From Eretmocerus hayati (taxonomy: Eukaryota > Arthropoda > Insecta > Hymenoptera > Aphelinidae), in NCBI GenBank assembly GCA_029851415.1, contig CM056743.1, forward strand, positions 28,656,405 to 28,720,404: 64,000 nucleotides of DNA, in the 5' to 3' direction. Below, piece after piece: positions 14,336-37,922 of this stretch. Both the position numbers and the translations under genes were made by a program. Position 1 is the first letter of the stretch. Each line of letters starts with the position of its first letter. The notes beneath the pieces were generated by a model. That model made no database searches. It was given only the letters and a program-made list of their open reading frames with translations, and was not told where the DNA came from.

Positions 14336-15376
14336 AACGTACACGCTCCCGCAGTAACTCATACAAATTAATTTCTTGGATTTCCTTATTTTTTCAAACC
14401 AGTCACAGCTCTGGTTGTAACTCATCAAATCGACTCAATAAGAGGGTCATTTTTAAGGAAATCCCATCATCTGTCGATTGAAATTAGCTTTGAAGACATT
14501 AAACGATGAGCACCGGCGAGGGAGGTTGATGATTGAAGGAACATTTTGACTCAAATATCACGGAGAATGCAGTAATTCTTGTCCAACCACGGTTTGCAAG
14601 AGAATTCGCGAAATTTTTCTTGGCCACACTTGAATTTTTTATTTCCATTCCTATTCGTAAATCTTCTTATTGGTTGAAAAAGTCTATGGGAAAAATTTGG
14701 GAATCGACGCACACCCCAGAGTAGTTACTTACAATGATACTATCAACTCTACCTTGAAAGCGATTGGGCATGTGTACACTTACCGGACAAAGTATCTGCT
14801 CAAATCTCGAAGAGTTTTTTGTTCCTCGGCCGTTGTTTCCATCTCTATCAGACCGTTTTTGATGCTTTAATGATCGCAATCTCACCCTCAGAAATTTAGA
14901 ATTGGAATCTAGTATCAAAATTCAAATAGCAGTTGTGGGACGAAAAAGCTTTTTCAAATTTGAGCAGATATTATGTCCGTCGATTGTACATGTGGCCTCG
15001 GGTTTTCTCTTTTAGTAATGAATGAAAGTTGAACCCAAATTTTCTACAGAGTTCGTGTTCCATTATCGATTATCCGCGGAGTGGGAATCTCCCCAGAATC
15101 AATACAGAGAAGAATCTATTGGCGTTGAATACAAAACGACACCTTATGGGCCGATCTCGAGTACTAAAAAGGAGGTTCCTATAAGAATATCAAAAATCAG
15201 AGTCTTGTCATATTAGCCAATGATATAGTTGGATTGGTATCATTACTCGATTGCACCATTTGCATTTAGATGTGTCTTGATCATGCCTATGTCACCTTTC
15301 AAAGCTTGCTGAAAATTCTGCAGTTTGCGAGTACATTGCTTTGATATCAAAATACAAAAAATGCTGATATTCTCAC

Positions 15377-16240
15377 CTGCTGATGTCGAGTCTGCCTCAA
15401 TTCTAACTGGATTGTCAGAATGTTTACGTCTACAGTGTCTCTTCACATTGTCACGTGTCCTGTATCGATTGCCGCAGATCAAGCAAACAAAGGGCAGCGT
15501 TTTTCGGCAATCCATTTTGACATGTAATTGTAACTCTGCATCTTGGGCAAATTTTCTTTTACATAGCTCACAAGAGAATGGTTTTTTCTCGTGGCTTTCT
15601 ATGTGAAAAAGCAATGTGTACTTTGTGCTAAAGCCCTTGTGGCAAATTGGACATTTGAAGATCTTTTCATTAGTATGCTTCCGCAAGTGCTTGCTTAAAT
15701 CATATTTGAAACGAAATGTTTCATCACAAAGAAAACACGAGTAGCCTTTTTTGTTTGGATGGTAATTTCTCACGTGAGCAGCCAGGTTACTTCTCGTTTC
15801 AAACTTTTTGCCACATAGCCAGCATGAATAAGCGAACGGGTCGGTGTGAGTTTTTGTATGGGCACTGAGAGCAATGTTTGTCTTGAACGATGTGTGACAA
15901 ACTTTACAAGAGAAAACTCTTGTATCCAAATGAGTATTTGCGTGCCGTGACAGACTTTGACGTGTACTCAAGGTTTTTCCACAAATATGACACAAGAACG
16001 ATTTCTCATTCTTATGTTTCGACTGATGTCTGTTACTATTCGCTTTGCATTTGGTTCCGACGTCGTAATTTCCACAAAGAAGAGATTCTTGTCCTTTATG
16101 CTTTTCACCATAATCATCAGAGTAGCTTCTTTCATTGAGATTGATGATGGAGTCCTCACTAGGAATGACATCAGCATGTTGATATTCATAATACTGCACA
16201 TCGTTGTGTTGGCCTTGATGCCTGTTAGTTGACAAATCGA
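15377..16240 (-). CDS. Gene A exon 3: C2H2 zinc-finger array of a secreted protein
   Basis: The exon is 864 nt on the minus strand, bounded by an acceptor (GAATTTCCAG) and a donor (GCAG|GTGAGA), phase 1 at both ends. It encodes 287 residues. After about 80 low-complexity residues with one degenerate Cys/His cluster come seven C2H2 fingers (residues about 157-349 of the assembled protein), each with C-x2-C, a hydrophobic core and H-x3-5-H/C; the sixth ends Cys instead of His. Linkers do not follow the TGEKP consensus. C2H2 arrays usually bind DNA or RNA in the nucleus, yet the first exon supplies a signal peptide. Gene B exon 3 is colinear, finger for finger. The first TTG is an internal codon, not the start. 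Predicted full product: 436 residues. Confidence 0.93.
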
Positions 16241-17218
16241 CTGGAAATTCGAAAATTTCGAAATAGATTATAATAACCTAAGTGGAACGTGCTTGAAAGT
16301 TCTTCAATTCCATTTGATCGTCTTTGGTTGGCTTTTGAGTAGTTTTGAATGGAACTAGCGGCAAAAATTGATGTCTTGAGTTTTTTTCCTCACCTTTTTA
16401 TCCAATCTAATTACACGAATACGAAATTTGAAATTTCTTTTTGGACATTAAGGAATTCTTCAATACATTCGGTAATCTATTTAGTTTGAAATAGTTGGAG
16501 ATCTAGAATGCAAGAAGGTATTAAAATGCAGTTCCCAATCGAAAGATTTTCTTCATATTTCTAACCTAAAAATGCCACTTCCAAACGCGTAGGTGATACT
16601 GGGTTTGAAAATTTTCCTGACAGACTTGTAGCACTTTGGGGTTTTGATGATCATGCAAAGGAGAATAAAACAATCTATTCCTTAGAAGATATGAGATGTA
16701 GATATAGAAAATCAACAAGTTGCTCAAAACTACTCCAATTTGAAGCAAATCAAGTGTAAAATCAAGTGCAAAAGTAGTTTGGAGGACGAATGCAGCGATT
16801 CCTGGAAGTTACTGTCGTTCAACTTCACACTTGCGCTTATACACAATGTGATAATTCTATCATGAGGATCTTCAAAGAGGGACAGAAAATCAGATTTTGA
16901 CAAGAGTTTGACATGAACCTTTCCTGGATCATCGGAATTGGTCCAAATTCATATCCTGAGTCTTATATATCAATCATAAAGTCAAGTAAGAAAAGCCAGA
17001 TGGGAAAGACTTCGGTATATGGGGATATGCTAACCATGTATATTACGTGGGACTGTTTTTCCAACGCTTCCCCTTCGTTTCCTCTCTTCAGTGAAGGCAA
17101 TTTCACGGTCAGTCGAATCGTGGCAATGATTCATACAGAAATGAATCAGATAACGAATTTTCTTCCTATCGATAAAATTTGATTTCATTGATATTGTCAC
17201 TTGAAAAACTTCACATAC

Positions 17219-22690: not shown

Positions 22691-22776
22691 CCAAAAAATA
22701 TGACTAACCACACATATAACTTGCTGATGCTCCCTTCAGTCATCCTGAGCACCAGGCTCATGTCCCATGAAATAGG

Positions 22777-24553
22777 ATGAATTCCACGTCAAAGCGACCT
22801 ACGAAAAGGGGTCATCTCTCAGATTCTTTTTTAACCTTTTTCATTCGATTCTATGGCCCAAAATAGGAACTTCTGACCACCTATGGGGCCAAAAAAAAAT
22901 TTCTCCTCTCCATTGCACGCACATCCGTCAACAGACCGAAAATTTATCGTATAAAAATCGATGCTCTTTTATTCACAAAAATGGGAATATTTCGAATTTT
23001 TGGATAGCTATCGATTTGCGGGTTGCGGCATCTGAAAGGGCATCAAAAAACCTATCGAAAACGTTGTTGGAGATTCCTTTTCTGTGATTTCGGGGCCTCC
23101 TGGAGGCAAAAGAGTGTTTTTCACTAAAATGTTGATTTCTCAAAAAGCCATTTTTTTTATTTTTTTAAAATCATATATTTGACGTAAAATTTTGCGTTCT
23201 TTTGAAAAAAATGGGTTTCAGAGAAGTTTGGGGCGATCCAAGTGACTTATGAGCCATTTTTTGGAAATTCGATTTTTTCGGTTTCAGAAAAAGGCGATTT
23301 TCTGCGCATACGCACAAACGTAGACTTTCGGCGCCACTTTCAATGGAAAGCTGACAAAATTTCCTATAAAATGACTACCTGCAAAGTTGAAATTCATGCA
23401 CTGAAACGCGATCTGCACGGATTAATTATGTCGAATCAAAATCACATGAAAATTCAGCCCATTAACCCCTAGTGGCGCCTGCTGAGATGACACATTCACG
23501 AGACCTTCTCGGGACTCAATGTTGAGTACGAAATTGACCCGAAAAAAAATTCGGACCACATTCAACGTGAAATTGTATGAACTTTCAAAATATGCGATGA
23601 AAAACCCCGTTTGAGGCGAACCAGAGGTGCTACATTCAATTTTTTGCCAGAAAATACGATATTTCACATTCAAAATTGCGAAAAATTGAATGTAGCACCT
23701 CGGGTTCGCCTCAAACGGGATTTTTCATCGCATATTTTGAAAGTTCATACAATTTTACGTTAAAACCATGTGGTCCGAATTTCTTTCAGGTCAATTTCGT
23801 ACTCAAAATTGAGTCCCAAGAAGATCTCGTGAACGTGTCATCTCAGCAGGCGCCACGAAGGCGTTAATGGGCTGAATTTTCATGTGATTTTGATTCGACA
23901 TAATTAATCCTTGCAGATCGCGTTTCAGTGCATGAATTTCAACTTTGCGGGTAGTCATTTCATAGGAAATTTTGTCAGCTTTCCATTGGAAGTGGCGCCG
24001 AAAGTCTACGTTTGTGCGCATGCGCAGAAAATCGCCTTTTTCTGAAACCGAAAAAATCGAATTTTCAAAAAATGGCTCCTAAGTCACTTGGATCGCCCCA
24101 AACTTCTCTAAAACCCATTTTTTTCAAAAGAACGCAAAATTTTACGTCAAATGTATGATTTTAAAAAAATAAAAAAAATGGCTTTTTGAGAAATCAACAT
24201 TTTAGTGAAAAACACTCTTTTGCCTCCAGGAGGCCCCGAAATCACAGAAAAGGAATCTCCAACAACGTTTTCGATAGGTTTTTTGATGTCCTTTCAGATG
24301 CTGCAACCCGCAAATCGATAGCTATTCAAAAACTCGAAATATTCCCATTTTTGTGAATAAAAGAGCATCGATTTTTATACGATAAATTTTCGGTCTGTTG
24401 ACGGATGTGCGTGCAATGGAGAAGAGAAATTTTTTTTGGGCCCCATAGGTGGTCAGAGGTTCCTATTTTGGGCCATAGAATCGAATGAAAAAGGTTAAAA
24501 AAGAATCTGAGAGATGACCCCTTTTCGTAGGTCGCTTTGGCGTGGAATTCATC
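22777..24553. repeat. 1.78-kb foldback with near-identical arms
   Basis: GATGAATTCCACG at 22777 is mirrored at 24553, and the two arms match over almost their entire length up to a centre near 23665 with only a short spacer. Paired open frames in the two arms are the same sequence read twice. A transcript across it would form a hairpin of roughly 850 bp. No transposase or clear target duplication is seen. Confidence 0.9.
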
Positions 24554-24639
24554 ATAGACCTTTTCCGCGGGCGGGTTGGCGCATCCATAGCTCTTCATGA
24601 TGGTTCCGCACCAACTACCCTGAGGCGTGGTACCACATG

Positions 24640-24850: not shown

Positions 24851-25616
24851 AGACCATCATTTTCTCAATTAACCCGTAATCCCCCTTTGGGGTGAGCTAC
24901 ACCCCCAGACCATTTTCGACATTCAAATAAGTCGACCAAACGCTTGATGGCGTCATCTCTCGTCAGTTTGGACGTACTTCTATACAGCCGCGGTATATCG
25001 CTCCGAGACGCGCGCTTTTGAAATTCAAAACGGGCGATTGTGCGCGACCCGTGGCCACCGCATTCACTACAACTGGCGTACTGTGCAGCAGACGGCGAAT
25101 CTTCGTAAGGGTCAAACTCGAAAACCATCGCTCAAATGTGGCAACAATAAGCGAGAAAGTTGTAGAACTTGTAAAAAGGAAGAGTTTGAGTGCTCGTGAG
25201 CCTAAATCCGAGCAAATTTGAGCTAGTTGAGGCGATTTCGAGATTTGGCGTGCTTTCAGCATAGGCGTCGCAGCCGCCACTCAAGCCGCGGGCTCGCATC
25301 CATTCTTTCGAGCTCCGTGAATCTTTAAATATTGCTCTGATTGATATCCAGAACAGCTCAAAATCTTCGTAATTAAATTTCCAACAACTTTGTCGCTTAC
25401 TGTTAGCAGGTTCAAGCTACGGTTTTCTCCTAAATTCACGAAAACCCCGTCTGCGCCTATGCTGTGCTGTGCCTCGCTGTGCACGCTCAATATTGTCATT
25501 GGCATGGCGCAGCATGGCGTCACCCTAGTGTGGGGTACATAATACCTCACATGCGCAATAGATGGATGACAGATCCAGCTCCTTTCCCGCAATCGACGGC
25601 TCAAGACCTCGATTAG

Positions 25617-25624
25617 TATATAAG
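25617..25624 (+). promoter_or_regulatory. TATA box of the 5' LTR
   Basis: TATATAAG at 25617, conserved at 26225 in the 3' LTR. Its spacing of about 32 bases to the first ribozyme nucleotide suggests that a Pol II transcript begins at or just before the ribozyme. Confidence 0.6.
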
Positions 25625-25648
25625 AGCGCATAAGTGCTTCATCGCCAA

Positions 25649-25731
25649 GCGTCCAGGGCACCACCTGCAACTCCAGCCCTGCTGATGAGTCCGGTTACGA
25701 TGAACCATGTTGCAGGTGGGGGACGAAACGC
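25649..25731 (+). ncRNA. Type III hammerhead ribozyme, intact core
   Basis: Self-cleaving RNA motif. Stem III is GCGT (25649-25652) with ACGC (25728-25731); C17 is 25653, so the cut falls after GUC. Stem I is CAGGGC (25654-25659) with GCCCTG (25676-25681). The core CUGAUGA is 25682-25688. Stem II is GTCC (25689-25692) with GGAC (25721-25724), containing an inner GGTT/AACC helix. The core GAA is 25725-25727. All invariant core nucleotides are present, including G5, G8, A9 and G12. Loop I and loop II share an 11-bp perfect complementarity (25661-25671 with 25709-25719), which could form the tertiary contact that natural hammerheads need. Stem III has only four pairs. Open stem III makes it type III, the plant/viroid topology. 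Confidence 0.92.
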
Positions 25732-25804
25732 ATAAGAGCCTTCTGCTCAAAGCGTGTAGAGTCATTCATTTAGTAGTGAATAAGCCATCAGCTCATTCCT
25801 ACAT

Positions 25805-25848
25805 TGGTAACCCGCGTCGTGATTGAACGCAACTTTCATGGAGTCAGA
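25805..25848 (+). other. Primer-binding site complementary to a tRNA-Trp-like 3' half
   Basis: TGGTAACCCGCG begins two bases after the LTR. Read as its complement it gives CCA, a discriminator, a 7-nt acceptor strand, a 5-nt T-stem strand and a T-loop TTCAATC with correct tRNA spacing. Similarity to the complement of tRNA-Trp(CCA) appears to continue into the anticodon arm (GCAACTTTC, then TGGAGTCAGA to 25848), with small deletions. Primer identity is from memory of the tRNA sequence and needs alignment. Confidence 0.65.
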
Positions 25849-26117
25849 TCAGTCTGAAGCATATGCTCATTACGAGTACGCTCAGTAAAAGCCTTTCCTC
25901 ATTTACATTTGATCACTTGCTAAGCGCCGTTGTACCGCGACACGCAGTAGTAACCTAGAGGCATTGCGACTTCGGTTCTGCTGCGGCGCGAGTCGCGAAA
26001 TGCGATGTCACGATGAATTCGCTCTCGGCATTCGCAGCTATAGTGCGGTGTCATGTATATTGAGTGATAAGTGCAAAATTAATAATTGTAAAATCATCCC
26101 TTGAACGCTATGGCTCT

Positions 26118-26136
26118 GAAGCGGGGGGAGTGGCAG
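26118..26136 (+). other. Polypurine tract before the 3' LTR
   Basis: GAAGCGGGGGGAGTGGCAG immediately precedes the TG of the right LTR; 16 of 19 bases are purines. This is the expected site for plus-strand priming. Confidence 0.7.
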
Positions 26137-26410
26137 TGTGGGGTACATAATACCTCACATGCGCAATAGATGGATGACAGATCCAGCTCCTTTCCCGCAA
26201 TCGACGGCTCAAGACCTGGATTAGTATATAAGAGCGCATAAGTGCTTCATCGCCAAGCGTCCGGGGCACCACCTGCAACTCCAGCCCTGCTGATGAGTCC
26301 GGTTACGATGAACCAGGTTGCAGGTGGGGGACAAAACGCATAAGAGCCTTCTGCTCAAAGCGTGTAGAGTCATTCATTAGTAGTGGATAAGCCATCAGCT
26401 TATTCCTACA
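26137..26410 (+). repeat. 3' long terminal repeat
   Basis: This repeat is 274 bp and about 97 percent identical to the 5' copy. Its ribozyme has a mutated core (see 26257-26339). Its TATA box at 26225 is intact. Confidence 0.88.
26257..26339 (+). ncRNA. Type III hammerhead, G12 replaced by A
   Basis: This has the same fold as the 5' copy: stem III GCGT/ACGC, C17 at 26261, core CUGAUGA at 26290-26296, and the loop I/loop II complementarity kept. One stem I pair is now a G-U wobble. The catalytic GAA has become AAA because base 26333 is A; G12 acts as the general base in cleavage, so this copy should be inactive or very slow. Confidence 0.85.
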
Positions 26411-26425
26411 CTAGCAGTACGCCAG

Positions 26426-35598: not shown

Positions 35599-36119
35599 AA
35601 GTAGGAGGTGGCGCGCGCTAATTCCTGCGTTTTCTTATATCTCACTTGTTCAAAATTTTTAGTTTTGGGGAAGGGGGTCGCCCCCATCACCCCCCCCCCC
35701 TGCTGCGAACGCTCATGAATTTAACACAACACGAATTTTGCGGACTATTTCAAAAACTTTATTTGGACACCTTGAATTGATCAGCAATCATTATTTTACA
35801 AATACTACTATTGAACTATAAAAGCATTTCTGGTGCCTATGACTTATCAAAAACATTTACAAGCCAAACGAGCGTTAGCGAGTAAGGCAAAAACGCTAGT
35901 AGTATACTAAAATTACAGAAAAATTTTATAGGATGCGAGTAGTAATCCCGAGCTCATGTTTTGAGCCATGGAACCAAATTACAAAGCCAGGGGAATGAAT
36001 TTGGTGATGAATTTCTGCTGTTAGGTCTTCATGAAATGACTCAAAAGATAATTGAGGGCGTTTCTGATGAAATTGAGAAACTCTAATATATATCTGACTT
36101 GATGATTTAAAATTTTCAG
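35599..36119. other. End of gene B intron 2
   Basis: Contains a run of about ten C at 35690, a GAGCGTTAGCGAG word shared with 20670, and the AT-rich acceptor region of exon 3. No gene is seen. Confidence 0.5.
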
Positions 36120-36986
36120 TTGATTTGTCAGTTAAACACCGACAGCAGGATCAACCTGATGAGATCCAGTGTAATGAATTTCAACCAATTGAAGGCATTA
36201 CGTGTGGAGGCACCTATAACATTCTTAACCAAGAAGTTCGCTCTGATGATGTTGATAGGGATCATGAAGACCAGGAAGCTGTCGTTTGTGAAATTTGCGG
36301 TGTCAGCATCAAATGGAGAGCAAATTATTGCAGGCATCTGATGAAACATACGGATGAGAGACGTTTCTTGTGTCATTTTTGTGGGAAAATGTTTAAAACC
36401 GGTCAAGGTCTGTCACGACACACAGAATCTCATCTGGATAGGAGACTTTTTACTTGTCAGATTTGTCACAAATCATTCAAAACAAGCAATGTTTTCAGTG
36501 CTCATGTAAGAACACACATCAATGAGTTTGCTTTTTCATGCACGTTATGTACCGAAAAATTCAAAATGAAAAGTAATCTCAATGCTCACATGAGAGATTC
36601 TCATCCAAACGAAGGACGTTACATATGTTCCCTTTGTGATGAAAAATTTCGTTTCAAATGTAATCTCAACAAACACTTGCGAAAGCATACAAACGAAAAG
36701 CTCTTCGAGTGTTCAGTTTGCAATAATTACTTCAGTACAAAATATACGTTGATTTCTCACATCAAAATTCACGAGAGAAAATCACTCTCTTGTAAGCTGT
36801 GTAACAAAAAATTTAGCTATGGTCCAGATTTGAGATTTCATGTTGAAAGTCATTACAAAAGACCGTCATCCTTCATTTGCTTGGTCTGTGGTAATCGATT
36901 CAAAACGCGCTACAATTTACGGAGACATTGTGAAAGCAACCACCGAGTTAATACAGTTGGAACTGAGGCAGACTCGACATCAGCAG
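36120..36986 (+). CDS. Gene B exon 3: eight C2H2 zinc fingers
   Basis: The exon is 867 nt between acceptor AAAATTTTCAG and donor GCAG|GTGAGG, phase 1 at both ends, and encodes 288 residues. After about 50 acidic residues come eight C2H2 fingers (residues about 130-350 of the assembled protein), all with C-x2-C and H-x3-4-H. The first is VVCEICGVSIKWRANYCRH-type; the last is FICLVCGNRFKTRYNLRRH-type. Fingers 2-8 align one to one with gene A; finger 1 matches the degenerate cluster there, so gene B is the better preserved copy. The DNA-contacting positions differ between the paralogues, suggesting different targets or none. With exon 1 the product carries a secretion signal; nuclear action would require uptake by another cell or use of an unseen start. 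Full product: 455 residues. Confidence 0.94.
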
Positions 36987-37922
36987 GTGAGGATACCAAC
37001 ATTTTTTGAAGTTATTTTTAATTCATTAATGTTAACTGGAAATAGTATCATTTCAAGTGACGATACAAGTGTATGCCCGAAAAGTTAGACTTACAATTGT
37101 TTGATTTCGATATTGGAGCACCACTTTCATCGGTTGCACTATATTCTGTAATATTAAAAACTGACCCGGGTACAGTCAAGACAAGTGCAAATGGCAGATT
37201 TAAAAGGGATAATACTACTTCAACACCATTTTTGGGCTCCCATGGGAAAATTAGGGTTTGTTGATCCTGTTAGGCTCAAAATTGTAGGTCCCCCTCAACC
37301 GGAGTGGAGGCGGAAGCTGGGCACCCGGGATATAAAAGTCAAATTCCTATAGGTCCCCCTCATGAAGGTGGATTTTGGTTGTTAGCAGCACGCTGCCACG
37401 CTGGCTCAGAGTATCTCAATTATACGGACAGGGTTCCATTCAGGCCGTCAAATTGTTGGATTGGTTACTGGGCATCAAAATAAAAACATTTGTCTGCTGA
37501 AACATTACTAAACAAATGAGCAAGTCCAAGAGGTTTCACACCATATATTTTTGACCATCCACTGACTTCCAAGACCGATCAAAAACCAAAATTTACAGAA
37601 ACAACTATCATCTCAAAACCATTTCCTACCAAATACATTCGTGATACCATACATTCGGGGAATCGTCTTTCGAGGAATAGGTGTTCACAAAAAGTACTCT
37701 CTGGGAAAATGTCCAACCGGGAAATAGAATTCGGGACAATGGTCGAAAACGCCGGGTACTGTCCCCTTTTATCAATATAACATGGAGTTCAAAGCCACAC
37801 TCGCAAATGCCCAATTACTTTTGAACTACAGCACGGACTATTAAGATTGCCGATTTGGACTTATGTTAAATAGTGATATATATTGCAATGCCGGCGTCAT
37901 TTGCTGTCGGCATTGCAAAATA

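Follow-up and report, generated by a model that had tools for sequence, protein, structure and literature searches.

Hammerhead-Bearing Retroelements and the Wasp Element

Plant retrozymes of the long terminal repeat (LTR) class have LTRs that carry type III hammerhead ribozymes with small loops, a tRNA-Met primer site, a unit of ~600-1000 nt and a GC content above 55% (PMC4918200; PMC9695139; PMC12029980; PMC7761336). Here we describe an element of similar plan in a 64,000-nucleotide stretch of the genome of Eretmocerus hayati, a chalcid wasp and thus an animal host (GenBank assembly GCA_029851415.1, contig CM056743.1, positions 28,656,405 to 28,720,404, forward strand; hereafter the window). 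The element occupies window positions 25529-26410. Judged from its sequence, it would belong to an insect lineage of LTR retrozymes, short non-autonomous LTR retrotransposons in whose transcript a type III hammerhead is predicted to cut close to where the R region of each LTR begins; we give this reading a probability of roughly 0.78. The family and its anatomy are near certain, self-cleavage by the ribozyme is very likely, and the proposed circular RNA route is likely.

The plant LTR retrozymes (Cervera et al., 2016, PMC4918200; NbRZ1-9, PMC9695139, PMC12029980) and the wasp element have in common a type III hammerhead in the LTR, a 4-bp target-site duplication, a primer site, a polypurine tract and a non-coding centre, together with concatenated copies, as described in Nicotiana benthamiana (PMC9695139), and a promoter inside the LTR; the unit predicted for the window element is, like the plant monomer, near 600 nt. 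They differ in several respects. The primer site of the wasp element resembles tRNA-Trp rather than tRNA-Met, and its GC content is 49%, against more than 55% in plants. Two further wasp families, B and D, have units under 600 nt (517 and 478). In place of small plant loops with non-Watson-Crick contacts, the wasp ribozyme has loops of 16 and 28 nt with an 11-bp stretch of complementarity.

Metazoan non-LTR retrozymes (Cervera and de la Pena, 2020, PMC7229834) also live in animal hosts, are non-coding and have units delimited by hammerheads. These are tandem repeats with type I hammerheads and RNAs of ~170-400 nt, described without LTR, primer site or polypurine tract (PMC7229834), whereas the wasp element has a type III ribozyme within true LTRs. 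Circular RNA has been demonstrated for the metazoan non-LTR elements (PMC7229834); for the wasp element we infer it. Penelope-like elements form another class of animal retroelement with hammerheads in its terminal repeats. To our knowledge, they lack TG...CA LTRs, a primer site and a polypurine tract. Their hammerheads are minimal type I motifs, unlike the type III motif of the wasp (PMC7229834; PMC7761336).

Pseudoknotted type III hammerheads are known from hepatitis delta virus (HDV)-like RNAs of termite and toad, from termite genomes as isolated motifs, and from dipteran genomes (PMC7936874). These resemble the wasp ribozyme in type, in their enlarged helices, in Watson-Crick pairing between loops 1 and 2 and in occurring in insect DNA; they differ in belonging to HDV-like agents or standing alone, and in a 4-nt loop consensus where the wasp has 11 bp inside LTR elements (PMC7936874). 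Finally, terminal-repeat retrotransposons in miniature (TRIMs) such as Helenus and Cassandra are short LTR elements without coding capacity that have a primer site and a polypurine tract; they occur in Hymenoptera, and animal Helenus makes a 4-bp duplication (PMC10886601). At 882 nt and without coding capacity, the window element falls within the usual definition of a TRIM (an LTR element under ~1 kb). The LTRs of Helenus and Cassandra differ in containing tRNA- or 5S-derived sequence, and the accessible text makes no mention of a ribozyme (PMC10886601).

Anatomy of the Element

The features of the window element, in window coordinates, are as follows.

25525-25528, unstranded: target-site duplication CTAG, 5' side, the same 4 bp at both ends
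25529-25803, plus strand: 5' LTR, 275 nt, TGTG...TACA; other genomic copies are up to 98% alike
25617-25624, plus strand: TATA box TATATAAG in the 5' LTR, at LTR position 89, starting 36 nt upstream of the predicted cut
25649-25731, plus strand: type III hammerhead of the 5' LTR, core intact, predicted to cleave after 25653
25661-25671, plus strand: loop 1 strand of the 11-bp loop-loop helix, by complementarity
25709-25719, plus strand: loop 2 strand of the 11-bp loop-loop helix, by complementarity
25804-26136, plus strand: internal region, 333 nt, non-coding
25805-25833, plus strand: primer-binding site, resembling the complement of the animal tRNA-Trp 3' end as we take it to be
26118-26130, plus strand: polypurine tract GAAGCGGGGGGAG, ending 6 nt upstream of the 3' LTR
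26137-26410, plus strand: 3' LTR, 274 nt
26257-26339, plus strand: hammerhead of the 3' LTR, core G to A at 26333, expected to be inactive in the window copy
26411-26414, unstranded: target-site duplication CTAG, 3' side

A sequence-only reading of the window had proposed that the genome is that of an animal and contains an LTR element of retrozyme type with type III hammerheads. The core of this proposal is supported by the insect host and by the many copies of the same architecture described below. The TG...CA direct repeats it noted are LTRs that are 97.5% identical, with six substitutions and one indel; a direct-repeat scan of the window listed four pairs, and TG...CA ends occur in none of the other three. 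The CTAG duplication flanks both ends, as it had stated. The non-coding centre likewise has the primer-binding site and polypurine tract that had been named, the start of the former now being set at 25805 after a single spacer nucleotide. Open reading frames (ORFs) within the element reach at most 64 amino acids, in agreement with the claimed lack of coding capacity; longer overlapping ORFs enter from the flanks, and a search with a spurious LTR ORF for protein relatives gave no candidates. The LTR pair might have belonged to a larger coding retrotransposon, which is not the case in the loci read.

A hammerhead in each LTR had also been claimed. The 5' copy has an intact core; in the 3' copy the GAAA box reads AAAA owing to the change at 26333. 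In the plant retrozyme NbRZ1, cleavage was significantly inhibited by a G-to-A ribozyme mutation at a position that the accessible text does not name (PMC12029980), and by analogy the window copy is probably half-dead. With this mutation in its 3' ribozyme core, the window copy is unlikely to release the proposed 608-nt monomer (25654-26261); elsewhere in the genome there are intact copies.

A short direct repeat, CGCATAAG, lies at 25627-25634 and 25729-25736, ~100 nt apart, and brackets the ribozyme in both LTRs. It might be a mark of how the ribozyme was acquired.

A Recently Active Family

The host genome (692 Mb in 17 contigs) was searched with an 888-nt stretch as query, and 40 of 331 candidates were scored, giving 71 matching pieces; L-numbers below denote genomic loci that were read, and C1 to C4 are genome contigs. 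Further copies of the same structure, which had been named beforehand as a test, were found: the 40 scored candidates include 26 distinct full-length insertions of this family, here called A (27 rows, since L017 and L018 are one trimer). An exact 4-bp duplication flanks 20 of the 26, the exceptions being L009, L017, L020, L021, L023 and L024. LTR pairs are identical in six insertions (L002, L005, L006, L007, L008 and L014), and 11 of the 26 have pairs of 99% identity or more, which points to recent activity. The CTGANGA core, the GAAAC box and the cleavage triplet occur together in 49 of 62 distinct LTR pieces that cover the ribozyme (a raw tally of 52 of 65 counts one trimer twice, and helices are not part of the tally). 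A hammerhead of type III topology in each LTR is a feature of the family, although some copies, such as the 3' one of the window, are broken. A gapped pattern for the ribozyme core has 202 sites genome-wide (104 + 98), and its reversed control has none.

Unit lengths are 608 nt in the window element and 595-635 in the family A rows. Several insertions (L014-L017, L019, L020 and L025) have LTRs 96-98% like those of the window, with internal regions as low as 68-83%; this combination suggests exchange of internal regions. Partial copies also occur, as seen at four further sites that were read: CCAG flanks the solo LTR of L073 at either end, L072 is an LTR plus adjoining internal sequence, and L070 and L071 hold LTRs that are truncated, the context being the same.

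Head-to-head copies or inverted partial pairs are present at L005, L024, L028, C4:35675058, C3:88824292, C1:128191440 and C4:64630256. Judging from the match coordinates, several of these arrangements look alike across chromosomes.

The Ribozyme and Its Loop-Loop Helix

The 5' hammerhead matches the Rfam model RF00008 (Hammerhead_3) over 25646-25734 with 33.5 bits (E 4.4e-5 when 1,180 bases are scanned); for the 3' hammerhead the score is 20.3 bits (E 0.24). A strict type III descriptor finds a single site in the window, both strands included, and none in 100 shuffled 64-kb sequences read on one strand each. Among eight loci scanned with RF00008 at E up to 0.1, five match (L002, L014, L017, L023 and the family A copy in L044), and the 3' LTR of family D scores 28.9 bits (E 8.2e-4). 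RF00008 is the sole Rfam family matching within elements in the loci scanned; matches to mir-498 in L069 and MIR1507 in L006 lie in the flanks, outside the elements and below gathering scores, and were set aside as chance.

Loop 1 is 16 nt long, and loop 2 comprises 28 nt including a hairpin of its own. They share 11 nt of perfect complementarity, a value reached by two of 20,000 shuffles of both loops, and the resulting helix alone has an energy of about -19.6. For ~40% of the hammerheads that Perreault et al. examined, a pseudoknot joining stems I and II is likely (PMC3088659). When folds of the growing transcript are followed, helix I pairs first and a competing long hairpin appears only once loop 2 has been made, so docking of the loops on helices already formed is plausible.

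Compensatory changes are present in the loop 1-loop 2 helix and in helix III. In an alignment of 11 rows from families A, B and D, 98.5% of cells pair. Five pairs have changed on both sides (four in the loop-loop helix and one in helix III), against a shuffled mean of 1.0; none of 500 shuffles equals this number, and slid strands give 0 or 1. The 11 rows omit the window 3' copy, the rearranged or decayed pieces L038, L049, L031 and L042, the 5' LTR copy of family D and most near-identical copies, and the small hairpin of loop 2 was dropped from the structure, family D being unalignable there. With families A and B only and the hairpin included, two pairs have changed on both sides, a number that 18 of 500 shuffles reach. 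The rows are few and related, and the covariation is therefore strong without being independent evidence pair by pair.

Other Families with the Ribozyme

At least three LTR families carry the ribozyme. Family B, on the minus strand of L044, has two 250-nt LTRs with three differences, a GTGG duplication and a period of 517; a second B-type pair with the same spacing lies at C2:20828143/20828660. Family D (L074/L075) has two 235-nt LTRs with four differences, a GATG duplication and a period of 478. Its 5' LTR ribozyme reads CTGCCGATGAG in place of CTGCTGATGAG, and its 3' LTR ribozyme is intact. Loop 2 of family D was found first, and loop 1, retrieved later, proved to be its exact 11-nt complement. 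Families A and B share 86% identity in the ribozyme (73 of 85 columns), 55% in U3, 51% in U5 and 49% in the internal region; shuffled means for this comparison, which covers A and B, are 43-46%, and shuffled maxima are 48-50% for U3, U5 and the internal region.

The insertion L069 is a trimer with a unit of 622 nt. It has family A LTRs around a different internal region, of which only the last 60 nt are in common, and it is flanked by GCGT on both sides, so that a 4-bp duplication is seen in family A, in B, in D and in L069. Its LTRs differ at one or two of 274 sites and its internal regions at one of 348. L017 is a second trimer of LTR-internal-LTR-internal-LTR structure, with flanks TTGT and CTGT. 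As far as their structure goes, the trimers are consistent with a circular template having been reverse transcribed.

Primer Site and Promoter

The animal tRNA-Trp 3' end and the other tRNA sequences used for comparison are those we take to be correct from general knowledge. The primer site, which begins directly after the spacer nucleotide, is the best of the 1,882 window TGG positions when scored against the tRNA-Trp 3'-end complement (16.5; next 10.0). Of 16 tRNAs compared in this way tRNA-Trp is also the best (16.5; next 7.5), and initiator tRNA-Met, whose presumed end is shorter, scores 2.0. Copy L016 matches the 29-nt tRNA-Trp complement with one mismatch, and family B has its first 18 nt exactly. 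Allowing up to three mismatches, the 29-nt pattern has five sites in the host genome and none in a control.

One of these sites, at C3:114568046, is exact and was considered as a nuclear tRNA-Trp gene. ARAGORN calls no tRNA gene there and an encoded CCA follows, so that the site looks like the primer site of another element. The locus in question (L076, C3:114568046-114568077, minus strand) holds a 32-nt exact complement of the presumed tRNA-Trp 3' end including CCA, with GAGCCCACA flanking both sides. On this sequence, it is probably the primer site of another LTR element.

The distance from TATATAA to the cleavage site is 36, 35 and 37 nt in families A, B and D, respectively, a spacing from which transcription would start a few bases upstream of the cut. 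In the window element the TATA box lies at LTR position 89 and the cut is predicted after LTR position 125; the transcription start of NbRZ1 is at LTR position 116 (PMC12029980).

Search for a Partner Element and Neighboring Sequences

Gypsy-type reverse transcriptase and gag ORFs are present in the host genome. At L032 and L061 the similarity covers an LTR (83% identical) and ~35 nt of the internal region, after which the sequence is unrelated. In L061 (2976-9900) the unrelated stretch beyond the retrozyme-like LTR and primer site contains internal repeats and, at a distance of ~6.2 kb, a Retrotrans_gag ORF; this locus is a possible lead to a partner element. L062 contains Gypsy-type reverse transcriptase and RNase H domains. 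The gag-pol ORFs of L062 were considered as a helper and are not claimed as a partner, because they lie outside the repeat that L062 and L063 have in common. That repeat, of ~4.6 kb (L062:78-4656, and L063), has inverted internal segments and a palindromic retrozyme LTR fragment, possibly a fragment captured by another mobile element.

Near one copy lies an ECSIT gene (L067:4042-5247; Pfam ECSIT_N, E 7.8e-66) that matches a protein of Eretmocerus hayati with 100% identity across 94% of the query. Two collections poor in animal DNA were also searched: viral contigs gave no matches to the ribozyme, primer-site and assumed tRNA-Trp patterns, and GTDB genome contigs none to the ribozyme and assumed tRNA-Trp patterns. 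Elsewhere in the window, two C2H2 zinc-finger ORFs lie in opposite orientation (15243-16277, minus; 36098-37009, plus), with DNA 71% alike. The window also contains 698-nt inverted arms that are 97% complementary (22773-23470 and 23859-24556) and many other long inverted repeats with short spacers; these are foldback-type elements.

Proposed Cycle and Alternative Explanations

In the cycle that we favor, transcription would start from the TATA box a few bases before the cleavage site, and the ribozymes of the 5' and 3' LTRs would cut the transcript to leave a unit of one LTR and one internal region (608 nt for the window element). A cut in each LTR leaves a unit without the terminal R repeat, and circularization would allow full copying, as argued for plants (PMC4918200). 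Ligation would close the unit into a circle, a tRNA-Trp-like primer would let a Gypsy-type reverse transcriptase copy round it into cDNA of one or more units, and integrase would insert this cDNA with a 4-bp duplication. Docking of helices I and II while the RNA is being transcribed is the probable role of the 11-bp loop-loop helix; in the circle, the ribozyme may be kept off by the competing long hairpin. A wider picture falls a little short of even odds and is offered tentatively: an independent animal lineage of LTR retrozymes built on a pseudoknotted arthropod type III hammerhead, which would spread by small circular RNAs copied by Gypsy-type reverse transcriptase from a tRNA-Trp primer, with families swapping internal regions while keeping LTR and ribozyme, and with the 11-bp helix acting as a conformational switch between cutting, while transcription is under way, and a stable circle.

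Several results weigh against the retrozyme reading. No copy scanned reaches the curated gathering score of RF00008 (48.5), the best being the 33.5 bits of the window 5' copy, and a gathering-level Rfam scan of the whole window lists nothing; the Rfam check suggested with the sequence-only reading thus yielded a type III match below the curated threshold. At E up to 0.1 the model finds nothing in L006, L025, L069 or either family B ribozyme of L044, although the L069 ribozymes are letter-for-letter of the family A type. RF00008 is a weak detector here because it was built for short loops; the misses stand nonetheless. The minimum-energy fold of the ribozyme segment is the long hairpin (-34.6), against -18.0 for the hammerhead without pseudoknot, which the folding programs used cannot form. 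The fold energy of the segment is not unusual against shuffles (z -1.3), and the 608-nt circle pairs to the same extent as shuffles (63% each), with a fold energy that is lower (z -2.2). The 3' ribozyme of the window copy is broken. Within family A, conservation of the ribozyme does not clearly exceed that of U3 (0.028 vs. 0.030), and two young subfamilies differ more in the ribozyme (0.012) than in U3 (0.007). Unequal recombination between LTRs would also explain the trimers, so they are no more than consistent with a circle. No Ty3/Gypsy helper was identified in the loci read. Nor was a host tRNA gene found with the 29-nt pattern, two of its five sites having been read (the exact one and L016), so the primer tRNA is matched only to a presumed sequence.

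The element could instead be an ordinary TRIM moving as linear RNA, in which the hammerhead trims cap or tail or limits translation and no circle is formed. All parts of an LTR element are indeed present, LTR-LTR identity reaches 100%, and TRIMs are reported from hymenopteran insects (PMC10886601). Cutting by both LTR ribozymes would, however, remove the terminal R repeats that conventional first-strand transfer requires (PMC4918200), and the ribozyme has been kept between families A and B though other LTR sequence is near chance level; we regard this account as unlikely. A chance hammerhead-like sequence without catalytic role is far less probable still. Although the sub-gathering score, the minimum-energy fold and the missed family B ribozymes are what it would lead one to expect, it is hard to square with a descriptor absent from the 100 shuffles, with 202 genomic sites against none in reverse, or with compensatory changes and conservation across families.

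Slightly less probable than the linear TRIM is an origin by internal deletion from an autonomous Gypsy-type element with LTR hammerheads, in whose cycle the ribozyme would serve. The LTR that runs into unrelated sequence at L032 and L061, the distant gag ORF and the domains of L062 fit such an origin, but the L062 ORFs lie outside the shared repeat, the L032 ribozyme core is broken, and the 30 loci retrieved of 42 with a primer site all contain sequence like the LTR and/or internal region of the short element. Horizontal transfer, whether from plant LTR retrozymes to the insect lineage or the reverse, is a little less probable again. The shared plan of 4-bp duplication, type III hammerhead LTR, primer site, polypurine tract and ~600-nt unit speaks for it, as does the resemblance of the NbRZ1 start to the predicted insect position. 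The 11-bp Watson-Crick helix of the loops, the tRNA-Trp-like primer and the lower GC content (49%) speak against it, the plant side being taken from descriptions.

Implications

No description of an animal LTR retrozyme was recognized among the papers listed by searches of an open-license library, the scope of which excludes subscription papers and preprints. Insect elements with type III hammerheads are mentioned as work in preparation (PMC7761336), so others may know of such elements. In the published accounts accessible to us, type III LTR retrozymes belong to plants and LTR-less type I retrozymes to animals, and a recently active insect lineage breaks this division. With the wasp families, the question of whether LTR retrotransposition is fed by circular RNA templates could be addressed in an animal, and they bear on the source of the hammerheads in ribozyme-bearing circular RNAs of animals, such as the HDV-like agents of termites.

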